Source of the DNA: Cognatundibacterium rivi
Lineage (GTDB): Bacteria; Pseudomonadota; Gammaproteobacteria; Burkholderiales; Burkholderiaceae_D
DNA: 64,000 nt
Direction: 5' to 3'
NCBI RefSeq assembly: GCF_018139565.1
Contig: NZ_JAGSPK010000002.1
Coordinates: 744,001 to 808,000, forward strand
The first letter of the stretch is position 1. Each line of letters begins with the position of its first letter. A model generated the notes under the pieces. It saw nothing but the letters and a program-made list of their open reading frames with translations. It made no database searches and had not been told where the DNA came from. The position numbers and the translations under genes are program-made. Of the stretch, positions 8,034 to 13,709 are shown piece after piece.

Positions 8034-8780
8034 TTAAACCTGACTGCTGTGGTTATCAACCCGCTCTTCCACAATACGAGGGCTATCTCCAACAGCAATA
8101 CTATAAAAAATATCGGACAACATCTCGCGTCGGGTAATTTCTCTACCAATAATTTCTTTCAACTTATTGCTGACAGGCAGAAAAAATAAATTAGCCAGAC
8201 CGACGCCGTAAATCGTCGCCACAAATGCCACGGCAATACCGCCACCAAGTTTCGCAGGGTCGGTCAGGTTTTCCATAACGTGAATCAGTCCAAGCACCGC
8301 CCCTAAGATTCCGATGGTCGGGGAGTAACCACCCGCTGCCTCCCAGATTTTGGCGGCCTGACGTTGCTCAATTTCATACAACGAAATATCCACATCCAGA
8401 ATGTCTTTCAGTCGCGAGGGGTCAACACCATCAATCACCAACCGTAATCCCTTACTGATAAAGGCATCGTCAGAGGCATCCATATAACGCTCTAGACTTA
8501 AAAATCCCTCGCGCCGGGCAACTGCACTCCAGATCAATGCGTCCTGAATATTTTTACGGCTATTATCTTGCGGCTCAGAAATGATCCATTTCAACATGCG
8601 TAAACCGCGTCGAAAAGTACTCATACGACTCTGCAGGAGCACTGCCCCCAGCGTGCCGATCACAACAATCACAAATGCCGCTGGTTGCACTAATGAAGAA
8701 AGACGCCCTCCCTCCATCAACTGACCGGAACTGATGCCGACAACGACCAGAATAAATCCTACTAAGCTAGCCCAGTCCAC
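8034..8780 (-). CDS. motC: Flagellar stator protein MotC (MotA family)
   Basis: Proton-conducting stator subunit partnered with MotD. The 248-residue product begins MDWASLVGFILVVVGIS and has four predicted membrane helices, including AAFVIVVIGTLGAVLL and the pair GGYSPTIGILGAVLGLIHVM / GGGIAVAFVATIYGVGLANLFFLPV that is diagnostic for MotA/ExbB-like proteins. The start is a GTG that overlaps the end of fliA by 19 bp, suggesting translational coupling. Confidence 0.9.
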   Translation of the reverse strand: MDWASLVGFILVVVGISSGQLMEGGRLSSLVQPAAFVIVVIGTLGAVLLQSRMSTFRRGLRMLKWIISEPQDNSRKNIQDALIWSAVARREGFLSLERYMDASDDAFISKGLRLVIDGVDPSRLKDILDVDISLYEIEQRQAAKIWEAAGGYSPTIGILGAVLGLIHVMENLTDPAKLGGGIAVAFVATIYGVGLANLFFLPVSNKLKEIIGREITRREMLSDIFYSIAVGDSPRIVEERVDNHSSQV

Positions 8781-9493
8781 GCTTTCTCCCTTAAATGCGC
8801 ACGCATACGTGCAACCGCCTGGCTATGCAACTGCGAAACGCGGGACTCAGAAACGCCCATGACCGCGCCGATTTCTTTCAGATTTAACTCCTGTTCGTAA
8901 TACAGCCCCATTAACAATTTTTCGCGTTCGGGCAAACTGTCGATCGCCCCAATAACCGCATCGCGGAAATCGTCATTCAGCAGATCCTGTAAAGGATCAC
9001 CGGAACTATCGGAAGAGTAATGATCGAGGAAATGCTCTTTTGTTTCTGCGTCATGGAAGTCTTCGTAATACACCAACTGATGTCCGCCGCTATCCCCCAA
9101 AAGTCCCTGATACTCTCCAAGGGATAACTTAAGCGACTTGGCCACTTCTGTTTCTGTCGGCGGCCGCCCCAGTTTTTGCTGCATCTGGTTCATCGCATTT
9201 TCGATTTTCCGCATATTCTGCCGAACCCCGCGCGGCAACCAGTCCGTGTTGCGCAGCTCATCAAGCATCGCGCCACGAATCCGCTGGACAGCATAGGTTT
9301 CGAATTGTGCACCATGCGTGTCTTCGTAACGACTGATCGCATCAAGCAGACCAATCATTCCAGCTTGCACCAGATCATCCACCTCAACACTGGGAGGCAA
9401 GCGCGCCTTTAATTGGTAAGCCAGTCGCTTAACCAAAGGCGCATGCTCCCTGAGGAGAAAATTTTTATCTGATTTTCCGCTGGCCGTGTACAT
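8762..9493 (-). CDS. fliA: RNA polymerase sigma-28 factor FliA
   Basis: Directs transcription of late flagellar and chemotaxis genes. I start it at the ATG giving MYTASGKSDKNFLLREHAPL (243 residues), 7 bp after the flhG stop. Longer in-frame readings would lie inside flhG. Region 2 (VDDLVQAGMIGLLDAISRYE, FETYAVQRIRGAMLDELR, DWLPRGVRQNMRKIE), region 3 and the region 4 helix-turn-helix (LKEIGAVMGVSESRVSQLH) are intact. A matching target promoter is visible upstream of flgM. Confidence 0.95.
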   Translation of the reverse strand: MYTASGKSDKNFLLREHAPLVKRLAYQLKARLPPSVEVDDLVQAGMIGLLDAISRYEDTHGAQFETYAVQRIRGAMLDELRNTDWLPRGVRQNMRKIENAMNQMQQKLGRPPTETEVAKSLKLSLGEYQGLLGDSGGHQLVYYEDFHDAETKEHFLDHYSSDSSGDPLQDLLNDDFRDAVIGAIDSLPEREKLLMGLYYEQELNLKEIGAVMGVSESRVSQLHSQAVARMRAHLREKAWTGLA

Positions 9494-9500
9494 ATTCAAA

Positions 9501-10346
9501 TTAGATTCCGAGAGCGATGCCCTGTTGTCCGGATACACTGTCCAGACACAATGCAGAGCGCGCACTGACAGCAAGCCGCTCTGCCAGTTGAAAAAAAGCC
9601 ATGGAAGAGCGCGCTTTTGGAAAAGCATCAATCACTGACCGCCCCTGATGAGCAGCTCTTCTGACGAATTCATCATCCGGCACATAACCAATGAAATTTA
9701 AGGGTACCGCAAGATATCGTTGAGACGCCTGAGCCATATTTGTATAAATCAACATTGCTTCTTTCTCAGATACACCGGACACCAAAATGCTAAAAGAGCG
9801 TCGTCCCAGACGAGCACTCATACGCTTAATCAGCCCATACGCAGATTTAATTGCTGACGGTTCTGAAGAAACCTGAATCACTACTTCACTATCATCCAGC
9901 GATGCCAGTGGAAACGCATCGCACGCATCGATATCACAATCAACCACGACCATATCGGCACGATGTACTGCCAGATCAAATACTCTCGACAATCGTCTCG
10001 AATTCTCGGCAGACAAGCTGGATGACAAAGTCCTTTGGCGCGATAACATCGATACTGACAAGCCAGATGCCACCATTTTTACTGCCTCGTGCATTGTACG
10101 CTGTTGTTGCGCGACATCCAACAAGGTGCACTCTCTACTCGCATTGAGCCACGCGCCTACACTATCAGAAGACGAACGCGCGTCCATCATCAAGATTTGC
10201 TGCCCCTGCCGCGCCACCGAAACACCCAGATTCACCAGCATTTCGCTTTTTTCATTATCTTTCAACGCTGATAGAAAAGTAAATACACGCGGCTTTGGTC
10301 CAGCCAGCATGCGACGCAGTCCCTCTGCCTGATCAACATTAGCCAA
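9501..10346 (-). CDS. flhG: FlhG/MinD-like flagellar number regulator with an atypical P-loop
   Basis: FlhG is normally an ATPase that stimulates the FlhF GTPase and limits flagellar number. I choose the TTG start giving MANVDQAEGLRRML: GGGAGGT lies 6 bases upstream and the start overlaps the flhF stop, whereas an earlier ATG lies deep in flhF. The product is 281 residues. The N-terminal DQAxxLR FlhF-activating motif is present. Where MinD/ParA proteins have a KGGxGKT P-loop, this one reads LSALKDNEKSEMLVNLG, lacking the glycines and the signature lysine. A Walker-B-like MVVVDCDID is kept. Assignment is firm from context and the ParA-like fold pattern; ATP binding is doubtful. Confidence 0.82.
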   Translation of the reverse strand: MANVDQAEGLRRMLAGPKPRVFTFLSALKDNEKSEMLVNLGVSVARQGQQILMMDARSSSDSVGAWLNASRECTLLDVAQQQRTMHEAVKMVASGLSVSMLSRQRTLSSSLSAENSRRLSRVFDLAVHRADMVVVDCDIDACDAFPLASLDDSEVVIQVSSEPSAIKSAYGLIKRMSARLGRRSFSILVSGVSEKEAMLIYTNMAQASQRYLAVPLNFIGYVPDDEFVRRAAHQGRSVIDAFPKARSSMAFFQLAERLAVSARSALCLDSVSGQQGIALGI

Positions 10347-11610
10347 GAGACACCTCCCGCGCAGCAGCTTGTCCACCAGTCGCAGCAGTTCCCACACCAG
10401 CCATCAGCAAAGGTAGCTCTTCATCCAGGTAACGGAACGGCGCCGTTTCACGTTTTAACTTAAAGGCGCGATCAATCAGATACTGCTTGTTTGCCACATG
10501 CAAGTCTTCCGGTACACGTTGCCCATTCGCAATGTAATACAGACTTAATTTTTGGCGGATCACGATATCCAGCGCACCACCTATCGTCGCCGCCTCATCA
10601 AGTTTAGTCAGAATACATCCAGCGAGGCCTGTCCCCTGATAAGCACGCACCACTTCACTCAGCGTTTCACCAGTCGATGTCGCATTCAGGCACAGCAACC
10701 GCTTCACTTCAGTGCCAGAACCAGACAACATCGCAACCTGATCCGTCACCATTTTGTCGCGCTGGCTGACCCCGACAGTATCAATTAAAACGGTATGTTT
10801 ATTCTTGAGCTCGGACAAAGCAATCCGCAAATCACTTTCGTCTTTGACTGCATGAACCATCACTCCAAGAATTTTCCCATAGATTCGTAACTGTTCATAG
10901 CCGCCGATACGATAGCCATCGGTGGTAATCAACGCCAGTTTCGACGGACCATGACGCATCACACAACGCGCTGCCAGTTTTGCAGTTGTCGTCGTTTTGC
11001 CAACGCCGGTCGGCCCGACCAGAGCGTACACACCACCCTTTTCTAAAATTTCATTTTCATTATCGATGGTCGTCAGATTGCGGGCCAGAATAGACTTTAT
11101 CCATTCAATACCTTGCTCACCTGTTTCATTTTCCGGTAACTTTGCAACCATGAATCGCGACAAGCTCGCACTCAGACCTGTTGCCAGCATCTCTTTCAAC
11201 ACCAGTGCCTTCTGCGGCTCGCGTTTTTGCGTATTCGCCCATGACAACTCCGCCAGTTGCGACTCCAGCATATTGCGCATGGAACGGATTTCGTTCATCA
11301 CATCACTTAACTCACCTGTCACAGAAGCCGGTGCTGCAGCATATTCCTGTGGCTCGACGGTTATGCCACGCGGTGTAAATATCCGTGTTTCATGTTGGAA
11401 CGATGGCGCCGCTCTGGTGTGATCGGATGCGATCTGGCGTTCATCCCTGGTCGGCGCGATCGACTGTATCGCTTCATCGGCCATCGCCATAATCTCGACC
11501 TTACCGTCAACATTCCGGTTGGACAAAATCACCGCATCCGCACCCAATGCTTCCCTTAATAAGCGAAGCGCCTCGCGCGAGGTGTTAGCAGTAAATTTTC
11601 TGACGTTCAT
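10339..11610 (-). CDS. flhF: Flagellar SRP-type GTPase FlhF
   Basis: SRP-family GTPase that fixes where the flagellum is built. The 423-residue protein begins with the FlhF B domain (MNVRKFTANTSREALRLLREALG), has a linker rich in Ala, Glu and Arg, and then the NG domain with P-loop GPTGVGKTTTTAKL near residue 198, the ITTDGYRIGGYEQL motif, the G3 region (LIDTVG) and TKLDEAATIGG. It overlaps flhA by 4 bp and runs into flhG. Confidence 0.95.
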   Translation of the reverse strand: MNVRKFTANTSREALRLLREALGADAVILSNRNVDGKVEIMAMADEAIQSIAPTRDERQIASDHTRAAPSFQHETRIFTPRGITVEPQEYAAAPASVTGELSDVMNEIRSMRNMLESQLAELSWANTQKREPQKALVLKEMLATGLSASLSRFMVAKLPENETGEQGIEWIKSILARNLTTIDNENEILEKGGVYALVGPTGVGKTTTTAKLAARCVMRHGPSKLALITTDGYRIGGYEQLRIYGKILGVMVHAVKDESDLRIALSELKNKHTVLIDTVGVSQRDKMVTDQVAMLSGSGTEVKRLLCLNATSTGETLSEVVRAYQGTGLAGCILTKLDEAATIGGALDIVIRQKLSLYYIANGQRVPEDLHVANKQYLIDRAFKLKRETAPFRYLDEELPLLMAGVGTAATGGQAAAREVSLG

Positions 11611-13709
11611 GATTGCCCTCCAACAAGGCTGGTAACTCTAATGGTTTTTGTTTCAGGTAATTCGGCATGCGACAACACTTTGAGTTGCGGCAATGTACGG
11701 CGTAAGAATTTAGACAGCAAAGCACGTAGTGGCGCAGGCACCAGCAAGACTGGCGTCATACCCATTTCCTCCTGATGTTTGGCCGCAGTTTCAGTTTGTG
11801 TTGTCAGTGCCTCAGCCAAACCAGGCTCCAGCGCAGCGCCATCGCCACCACCGGCATGGATCGCCTGCATCAGCAAACGTTCAAGGCGACTATCCAAAGT
11901 CATGACAGTCAGCTCATTCGTTGCCGGGAAAATTTGCTGAACAATCGCACGGCCAAGCGCGATACGTACTTGCGCGGTCAGTTCATTGGCATCCTGAGTA
12001 TGCATCGCCTGCTCAGACAAGGTCTCGATAATGGTGCGCATATCACGGATGTGTACGCCTTCCAGCAGCAGGTTTTGCAAGACTTTTTGCAGTACCGATA
12101 AAGGAATCAGTTTAGGTACCAGATCTTCAACCATTTTTGGCATTTCTTTTGCCAGATGATCCAACAGCTGCTGCACTTCCTGACGACCTAATAATTCAGC
12201 GGCATGGGTCGTGATCAGATGATTCAGGTGGGTGGCGATTACTGTACCGGCATCAACCACGGTGTAACCCATCGCCTGTGCTTGTTCGCGTGCACTGGCA
12301 TCGATCCAAATCGCAGGTAAGCCAAACGCGGGATCAGTCGTTTCCACACCCGGCAAAGGCCCGGACACCATGCCGGGATTAATCGCCAGATATTGGCCGT
12401 TCATCGCTTCACCAGCGCCAACCTCAACGCCTTTCAACGCGATGCGATAAGCAGATGGCTTCAGCTCAAGATTGTCGCGAATGTGCACCGGCGGCGATAG
12501 AAACCCCACCTCTTGCGCGAATTTTTTACGTATTCCTTTAATACGACGCAGCAACTCGCCGCCCTGCGTTTTATCGACCAGAGGAATCAGGCGATAGCCA
12601 ACCTCCAGCCCCAGCGTATCGACAGGCAGAATATCCTGCCAGGTAGCTTCTTCAACTTCAGGTGCCGGTGCATTCTGTGCTTCCGCTTGTGCCGCCGCTT
12701 CGGCAGGAGAAATACCCGCTGCCTGTTGCGCCTTCTGACGTGCCAGATAACCGGCACCGGCCAGCAATCCAGCTAACAAGACGAAAGCAATATGCGGCAT
12801 ACCTGGAATAATGCCCATGCCACCGATAATGCCAGCGGTGATAAACATGACCTGTGGTTTGGCAAACAACTGTCCTATCAACTGACCGCTGATATCTTGC
12901 TCACTGGCGACACGTGAGACCACCACACCAGCTGCAGTAGAAATAATCAGTGACGGAATCTGCGCAACCAGACCATCACCGATGGCCAGCAAGGTGTAAT
13001 TCTTCAGCGCAGAACCAAAATCCAGATCATGCTGCACCATACCCACAATCAGACCGCCGACGATATTAATCACCGTCACCATGATCCCGGCAACCGCATC
13101 ACCGCGCACGTATTTAGATGCACCGTCCATCGCACCGTAGAATTCAGCTTCCTGCGCCACTTCGGTACGGCGACGACGCGCCTCTTGCTCGGCAATCAGA
13201 CCGGCATTCAGATCGGCATCAATCGCCATTTGCTTACCAGGCATCGCATCCAACGCAAAACGCGCGCCGACTTCAGCGATACGACCCGCACCTTTTGTCA
13301 CTACGGTAAAGTTAATGATCGTCAGAATCACAAACACCACGATACCGACGGTATAGTTGCCGCCAATCAGAAAGTGACCGAAAGCCTCAATCACCTTACC
13401 TGCAGCGTCCGGGCCTGTATGCCCCTCAGTCAACACCACGCGGGTAGACGCGACGTTAAGCGATAAACGCAGCATAGTGCTGACCAGCAGCACCGTTGGG
13501 AACACCATGAAGTCCAGCGGCTTCACTGTGTACAAACTCGTCAGCAAAACAATGATCGCAATCGCGATATTGAAACTAAAAAAAACGTCGAGAATAAATG
13601 CTGGCAATGGCAACACCATCATAGCCAGCATCAGAATAATCAAGATAGGCGCTGCCAGCGCCCTGCCATTGAGCCCGTTCATCCACAAAGGCAATTTCAG
13701 GCTGTTCAT
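11607..13709 (-). CDS. flhA: Flagellar export gate protein FlhA
   Basis: Large integral membrane component of the flagellar type III export gate. The 700-residue product has about eight membrane helices in the first ~320 residues. The FHIPEP signature is present at about residues 140-175 (GRIAEVGARF, LDAMPGKQMAIDADLNAGLI). A ~350-residue cytoplasmic C-terminal domain binds chaperone-substrate complexes. Four-base overlaps with flhB upstream and flhF downstream indicate one operon. Confidence 0.97.
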   Translation of the reverse strand: MNSLKLPLWMNGLNGRALAAPILIILMLAMMVLPLPAFILDVFFSFNIAIAIIVLLTSLYTVKPLDFMVFPTVLLVSTMLRLSLNVASTRVVLTEGHTGPDAAGKVIEAFGHFLIGGNYTVGIVVFVILTIINFTVVTKGAGRIAEVGARFALDAMPGKQMAIDADLNAGLIAEQEARRRRTEVAQEAEFYGAMDGASKYVRGDAVAGIMVTVINIVGGLIVGMVQHDLDFGSALKNYTLLAIGDGLVAQIPSLIISTAAGVVVSRVASEQDISGQLIGQLFAKPQVMFITAGIIGGMGIIPGMPHIAFVLLAGLLAGAGYLARQKAQQAAGISPAEAAAQAEAQNAPAPEVEEATWQDILPVDTLGLEVGYRLIPLVDKTQGGELLRRIKGIRKKFAQEVGFLSPPVHIRDNLELKPSAYRIALKGVEVGAGEAMNGQYLAINPGMVSGPLPGVETTDPAFGLPAIWIDASAREQAQAMGYTVVDAGTVIATHLNHLITTHAAELLGRQEVQQLLDHLAKEMPKMVEDLVPKLIPLSVLQKVLQNLLLEGVHIRDMRTIIETLSEQAMHTQDANELTAQVRIALGRAIVQQIFPATNELTVMTLDSRLERLLMQAIHAGGGDGAALEPGLAEALTTQTETAAKHQEEMGMTPVLLVPAPLRALLSKFLRRTLPQLKVLSHAELPETKTIRVTSLVGGQS

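Follow-up and report, generated by a model that had tools for sequence, protein, structure and literature searches.

Results

An FlhG ortholog without P-loop in a flagellar operon

The window analyzed here, a 64,000-nucleotide stretch of the Cognatundibacterium rivi genome, encodes an ortholog of FlhG/FleN, identified as such by synteny, sequence, fold and the presence of a DQAxxLR motif, in which the canonical P-loop of the family is absent. The P-loop-less FlhG variant is old, widespread and under selection. Our favored interpretation, to which we assign a probability of roughly 0.7, is that these proteins constitute a conserved, functional FlhG pseudo-ATPase operating as a nucleotide-independent GTPase activator of FlhF.

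The coordinates given for the gene in a preliminary description (9501-10346) proved correct; the strand, unstated there, is the minus strand, with the gene running from 10346 down to 9501 (Table 1). The TTG start of flhG and the end of flhF share 8 bases, and flhG lies between flhF and fliA in a flagellar operon of betaproteobacterial type with the order flhA-flhF-flhG-fliA. The listed start of fliA is mechanical, and the real fliA start probably lies beyond the flhG stop codon. The FlhF protein encoded in the window contains both GPTGVGKTT and DTVG. A search at an E-value of 10 returned no further flhG copy in this genome, leaving a single FlhG.

Table 1. Position of the flagellar genes and FlhG sequence features in the window.
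Feature	Position	Strand	Basis or remark
flhA	11607..13709	minus	FHIPEP family, E 1.2e-274
flhF, SRP-type GTPase, partner of FlhG	10339..11610	minus	TIGR03499, E 3.5e-83, 279.9 bits against a cut-off of 174.15
GGGAGG, likely flhG ribosome-binding site	10353..10358	minus	6 bases ahead of TTG, read directly
flhG	9501..10346	minus	281-aa ORF, TTG start
DQAEGLRR, residues 5-12; FlhF-GTPase enhancer helix in studied FlhGs	10311..10334	minus	predicted helix 6-14 in model
LKDNEKS, residues 28-34, where KGGxGKT is expected	10245..10265	minus	gap-free alignment
DAR, residues 55-57, where switch I DAD is expected	10176..10184	minus	alignment
DCDID, residues 136-140, where DTAAG (Walker B / switch II) is expected	9927..9941	minus	alignment
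C-terminal tail, residues 260-281, without amphipathic membrane-targeting helix	9504..9569	minus	residues 268-276 with pLDDT <50
fliA (sigma-28), 3' of flhG	8762..9631	minus	Sigma70 regions 2, 3 and 4

Sequence searches against solved relatives matched the protein to FleN (E 2.5e-22) and to the FlhG of 4rz3 (E 1.7e-14), and the sole Pfam family above its cut-off was Fer4_NifH (30.6 vs 25 bits), a relative within the same superfamily. Structure prediction, which had been proposed as a check, yielded an AlphaFold2 model with a pLDDT of 90.2 and a pTM of 0.86 (input of 65 own plus locus proteins) and a FleN/FlhG fold. The best PDB matches of this model were FleN (Foldseek E 1.8e-17) and FlhG, with Z scores of 26.6 and 25.5, respectively, in the fold comparison. 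Scores against the NCBIfam MinD models fell far under the respective cut-offs (minD_bact, 38.9 vs 212.9 bits; minD_arch, 53.7 vs 201.75 bits).

Two defining features of FlhG/FleN proteins were absent from the window protein: the deviant Walker A motif KGGxGK[ST], which is occupied by LKDNEKS, and the C-terminal amphipathic membrane-targeting helix, for which the sequence pattern was not found. Judging from its motifs, we class this protein as a P-loop-less variant rather than as a classical FlhG ATPase.

Relative to the gammaproteobacterial KGGVGKT, the signature lysine is replaced by leucine and the three glycines by lysine, aspartate and glutamate. The earlier claim that the P-loop had been replaced hence holds for the glycines and the signature lysine, but it overlooked that lysine and serine still occupy the Walker A Lys and Ser/Thr sites (K33 and S34), which is where the match to FleN sets in. 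A normal P-loop formed by another nearby segment, which the preliminary description had named as the observation that would speak against a loss, was not found: no KGGxGK[ST] occurs in the 85 distinct sequences of the family, and no G-x4-GK[ST] in the first 70 residues. In the predicted structure, strand 1 extends to residue 26 and helix 1 starts at residue 30, so that a loop of 3 residues remains; the control model of an intact FlhG reached a pLDDT of only 58, too poor to serve as yardstick for loop length.

A sequencing, frame or assembly error was considered as the origin of the unusual loop and rejected on the following grounds. Single-protein searches matched flhG in 38 of 39 genus genomes (and in 122 of the 145 family genomes), all 30 genus loci that were fetched lack KGGxGKT, and the independent record of Undibacterium aquatile (L055) contains an FlhG that is 96-97% identical and has an identical loop. 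From this identity the host can be assigned to Undibacterium, which NCBI places in the Oxalobacteraceae.

Distribution of P-loop loss

The comparative analysis was based on 164 distinct proteins bearing the DQA motif: 85 from the family of the window genome (f1), 12 and 5 from two further Burkholderiales families (coded f33 and f24), 35 from other Burkholderiales families and 27 from the Gammaproteobacteria. Five loci were left out of this alignment, namely L136, a placeholder, and L091, L165, L173 and L174, which did not match the motif pattern. Since the last three are Gammaproteobacteria that carry KGGVGKT and were dropped for failing the pattern, DQA conservation in the Gammaproteobacteria is conditional on that pattern; among the Burkholderiales loci of the set, only the paralog L091 failed it. 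The 5' neighbor of flhG is flhF in 84 of the 85 family loci and in 163 of the 164 loci overall.

The alignment of Oxalobacteraceae FlhGs that had been suggested as a test of a lineage-wide loss revealed no KGGxGK[ST] in any of the 85 family proteins, and the decay was found to extend past Oxalobacteraceae. The motif was likewise absent from all 52 Burkholderiales proteins outside the family (f33, f24 and the 35 others) and present in 27/27 gammaproteobacterial sequences. The decay is graded, from GKRGVGKT or GRNGVGKT through GARDGLGAT to a loop of the form x-D/E-D/E-E-K-S. Switch I (DAD) retains its second aspartate in 27/27 Gammaproteobacteria vs 2/85 family sequences, and DTAAG gives way to a D-A/G-E-L-D consensus in the main clade of the tree described below. 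The sequence pattern of the membrane helix was detected in none of the f1 (0/85), f33 (0/12) and f24 (0/5) proteins, and in all 27 Gammaproteobacteria. The motifs of the ATP site and the membrane helix have been lost in concert, and lineage-wide. The label pseudo-ATPase does not extend to the entire order, because among the 35 proteins of other families GK[ST] is retained in 14 (it is found in none from f1, f33 or f24), 5 still have lysine at the site of the signature lysine, and the membrane-helix pattern persists in 18.

The hits of the first order-wide set had been ranked with a degenerate profile (A1, from which L047 was excluded due to a stop within its stretch) and mostly comprise one or two sequences per family, with a bias towards degenerate forms. 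For this reason, the order was searched again with an intact-FlhG profile, which matched 249 of 399 genomes at an E-value of 1e-20. Among the best 30 loci of this search, some of them shared with the first set, 23 carry the DQA motif and 0/23 have KGGxGK; the other 7 present KGGxGK and lack DQA. Several matches to the intact-FlhG profile are MinD/ParA-like and have no flhF in the fetched stretch (L214, L215, L217 and L219-L222).

A quick IQ-TREE reconstruction on 113 rows, with the motif columns removed, placed f33, f24, L084 and 37 of the 47 sampled f1 rows in a single clade (SH-aLRT 99), and the Gammaproteobacteria on one side of a branch with a support of 100. The number of changes on this tree was one for KGGxGK, at least six for GK[ST] and at least five for the membrane-helix pattern. 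Loss of GK[ST] and loss of the membrane helix were associated across the 35 rows of other families in a plain Fisher test (12, 2, 6, 15; p 0.0016), and on the tree only 3 independent pairs on well-supported branches were available, too few for a correlated loss to be demonstrated there. Ten f1 rows fall outside the main clade. Four are strongly diverged (L094-L097), and the remaining six (L099, L100 and L104-L107) have a VGSSPxVGVTS-type loop and group with f30, a placement that may reflect horizontal transfer or retention.

Conserved residues and selection in the remodeled protein

The N-terminal DQAEGLRR motif, reported as intact in the preliminary description, was confirmed (Table 1), and its D, Q, A, L and R residues (DQAxxLR) are conserved in 137/137 Burkholderiales sequences. 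Among 39 representatives with less than 70% identity, a count that excluded 12 f1 rows of other types, DQAxGLRR is invariant, as are N39 and D55. All 39 have K or R at position 33; an acidic residue occupies position 32 in 35 and position 138 in 34, and D136 is found in 36. Loop positions 29-31 rank with the variable sites (79th-84th percentile). By these frequencies, the old pocket has kept a conserved set of charges and is no random remnant. In genus g5, two FlhG proteins are truncated, at 226 and 218 residues (L089 and L090), and end ahead of the last conserved block.

The gene is under strong purifying selection. In 11 pairs of our choosing, some of them with synonymous sites near saturation, dN/dS ranged from 0.024 to 0.168, and loop codons 25-36 accumulated 46 synonymous vs 10 nonsynonymous differences, summed over the same pairs.

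With K or R at position 33 and D at position 55 throughout the representatives, the remodeled pocket could still bind something. The protein might then be a non-canonical switch, in which a rebuilt pocket made up of K33, E32, D55, D136 and D/E138 binds a nucleotide or another ligand and FlhG cycles between two states. The conservation of precisely these positions and the selection on the loop codons are in line with such a switch, which we nonetheless regard as unlikely: the window protein has no glycine at any of the three P-loop glycine positions, positions 29-31 vary, the model has a helix from residue 30 and a loop of 3 residues, and the membrane helix is lost. Another, tentative account of the same residues is that the ATP site was rebuilt into a permanent charge cluster that replaces Mg-ATP and locks FlhG in one state. 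In the Oxalobacteraceae and related families, K/R33 and D55 would be surrounded by the acidic loop, with D/E at 30-32, and by the E-L-D that follows Walker B. FlhG would then serve as a rigid platform for the helix that activates FlhF, and flagellar number would depend on nothing but how much FlhF and FlhG is present.

Co-occurrence with FlhF

FlhF scored above its family cut-off in 123 of the 145 family genomes, and an FlhG-like ORF was found in all 123, of which 120 match FlhG by single-protein search; of the 23 family genomes without such a match, three were identified by inference. The remaining three FlhF-bearing genomes (G046, G087 and G067) have an ORF between flhF and fliA with DQAAGLR near its start that is recognized as FlhG by profile (best E-values of 3e-29, 9e-18 and 3e-12 when profile A3 was run against the three loci). 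These highly diverged ORFs lie in L176 (1597-2439), L177 (1604-2527, split by a run of N) and L178 (1487-2410), and no Pfam family was matched in two of the three. The FlhF P-loop pattern was detected in 102/102 f1, f33 and f24 loci; the pattern is strict and missed 4 of the 27 Gammaproteobacteria.

These data bear on two further interpretations. FlhG could be a decaying gene on its way to being lost, with little function and held only by operon structure, as might be read from L176-L178, whose divergence hides them from a single-protein search, and from enteric flagella, which are thought to be of betaproteobacterial origin and are described as lacking FlhF and FlhG (PMC12826062). The low dN/dS values, the universal conservation of DQAxxLR among the Burkholderiales sequences and the presence of an FlhG ORF in every FlhF-bearing family genome make this very improbable. 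Alternatively, the main role of the protein could be to bind the C-ring or another protein, FlhF activation being secondary. Residues distant from the helix are invariant (Y170, K174, G181, L212, G220, P223, D225, A231, G235, V238 and P243), and Geobacillus and Shewanella FlhG are described in passages of PMC7226244 as binding FliM/FliY with no need for nucleotide; yet the most diverged family versions (L094-L097 and L176-L178) differ domain-wide and retain the helix, and we consider such a role doubtful.

A second type of cluster, in mirror-image arrangement, was observed at six loci (L091, in the same family as the window genome, and L209-L213), with a divergent flhF followed by flhG. The FlhG proteins of these loci have KGGxGK and lack the DQA helix, and their FlhF proteins keep the P-loop and, at further GTPase motifs, depart from the window FlhF. 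In L091, TTDGYRIGGYEQL of the window FlhF is replaced by SWCDQRAGAWSQ, and DTVGVSQRD by DTPGVE; we take the altered motifs to be SRP-GTPase hallmarks. If it holds up, the joint occurrence of the helix and ordinary FlhF GTPase motifs would support the task proposed for the helix. Two genomes with an FlhG match and no FlhF above the cut-off (G084 and G155) belong, by position, to this second cluster type.

Regulatory context

FlhC was detected in all f1 genomes examined (21/21), in 3/4 from f33, 3/3 from f24 and 12/33 from other Burkholderiales, with one weak match in 19 Gammaproteobacteria, and flhD and flhC are adjacent in the window genome. The gain of FlhDC was considered as a trigger of P-loop decay and fits only in part, as P-loops have decayed in genomes lacking FlhC as well; because FlhC is missing from 21 of the 33 genomes of the other families, FlhDC does not explain the decay there. 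The FleQ domain (PF06490) scored 38 bits or more in 15/19 Gammaproteobacteria vs 0/61 Burkholderiales genomes, at a line fixed after the scores had been seen. The Pfam cut-off of 22 bits does not discriminate, with many Burkholderiales genomes matching at up to 37.1 bits, and 4/19 Gammaproteobacteria score below 38. The absence of FleQ fits the P-loop decay better than the gain of FlhDC does.

Discussion

In our favored reading, the SIMIBI (MinD-like) fold would be kept, with no loop left around the nucleotide phosphate and no membrane helix, and because both these elements are missing the classical ATP-driven monomer-dimer and cytoplasm-membrane cycle is probably gone. According to PMC12826062, the DQAxxLR glutamine of studied FlhGs is co-catalytic for FlhF, completes its GTPase site and promotes the transition from active FlhF dimer to inactive monomer, and ATP drives FlhG dimerization and membrane binding. 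With the helix retained, its glutamine would still act in the FlhF GTPase site, and FlhG would most likely be a soluble GTPase activator, competent at all times, that switches FlhF off, a putative monomer that would not bind ATP and would activate FlhF independently of nucleotide. Function without ATP is what we strongly infer.

Work in Vibrio, as described in the corresponding parts of PMC7226244, outlines what such a change would involve. Walker A mutants of FlhG lose ATPase activity, polar localization and control of the activator FlaK, and are hyperflagellated, whereas D60A, which binds and does not hydrolyze ATP, is nearly normal; wild-type FlhG behaves as a monomer in vitro. Inhibition of the FleQ/FlrA-type activator in Vibrio seems to require ATP-bound FlhG. 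That the Vibrio P-loop mutants are non-functional speaks against our reading, under which the role of FlhG would have to have been rebuilt. The D60A and monomer data make plausible a monomeric, ATP-independent FlhG acting only on FlhF, provided that FleQ-type control has become unnecessary. The ATP cycle could have become dispensable because FleQ/FlrA-type activators are absent, with the loss of FleQ as the presumed cause.

The flhA-flhF-flhG-fliA operon may itself be under FlhDC control. In Burkholderia glumae, where, according to the relevant part of PMC3885665, flhBAFG and fliA are co-transcribed and flhF depends on FlhDC, a flhF mutant misplaces its flagella, and FlhF can therefore be regarded as functional in operons of this kind.

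In the literature FlhG is an ATPase, and flagellar control is attributed to its cycle of ATP-dependent dimerization and membrane binding (PMC12826062); no title or abstract on a P-loop-less FlhG was found in the open-access PubMed Central literature. A family without the P-loop motif that has flhG, the activating helix and FlhF provides a natural separation of the two FlhG activities, so that the one responsible for counting flagella could be told apart by experiment. The absence of FlhF and FlhG from enteric bacteria may be viewed in the same light, as FlhG in such systems may have been confined to a single task beforehand.

Comparison with known systems

The closest structural relative, FleN of Pseudomonas aeruginosa (5j1j, 7ejw, 8p53, 8pb9), shares a common fold with the window FlhG (rmsd 2.7 over 244 residues). 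The position 3' of flhF is common to the window gene and the Gammaproteobacteria sampled, and presumably also to P. aeruginosa fleN. FleN binds nucleotide (5j1j) and FleQ (7ejw, 8p53), whereas the window FlhG lacks the P-loop, switch I and the membrane helix, and its genome has no FleQ domain reaching the cut-off (best match 21.5 bits, cut-off 22).

The FlhG of Geobacillus thermodenitrificans (4rz2, 4rz3) likewise shares the MinD-like fold and, according to the literature, the FlhF-activating helix. It is described as forming an ATP-dependent dimer and binding lipid through a C-terminal helix (PMC12826062 and PMC7226244, in the parts on this protein), neither of which would be expected of the window FlhG. 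MinD, which has the same SIMIBI fold, is described in PMC12826062 as carrying the deviant Walker A motif but lacking a DQAxxLR helix. Outside the flagellar systems, the regulator BcsE likewise has, in its N-terminal domain, a Walker A motif so strongly diverged that ATP binding is judged unlikely (PMC7439463), and differs in being predicted as RecA-like rather than SIMIBI and in serving cellulose secretion instead of flagella.
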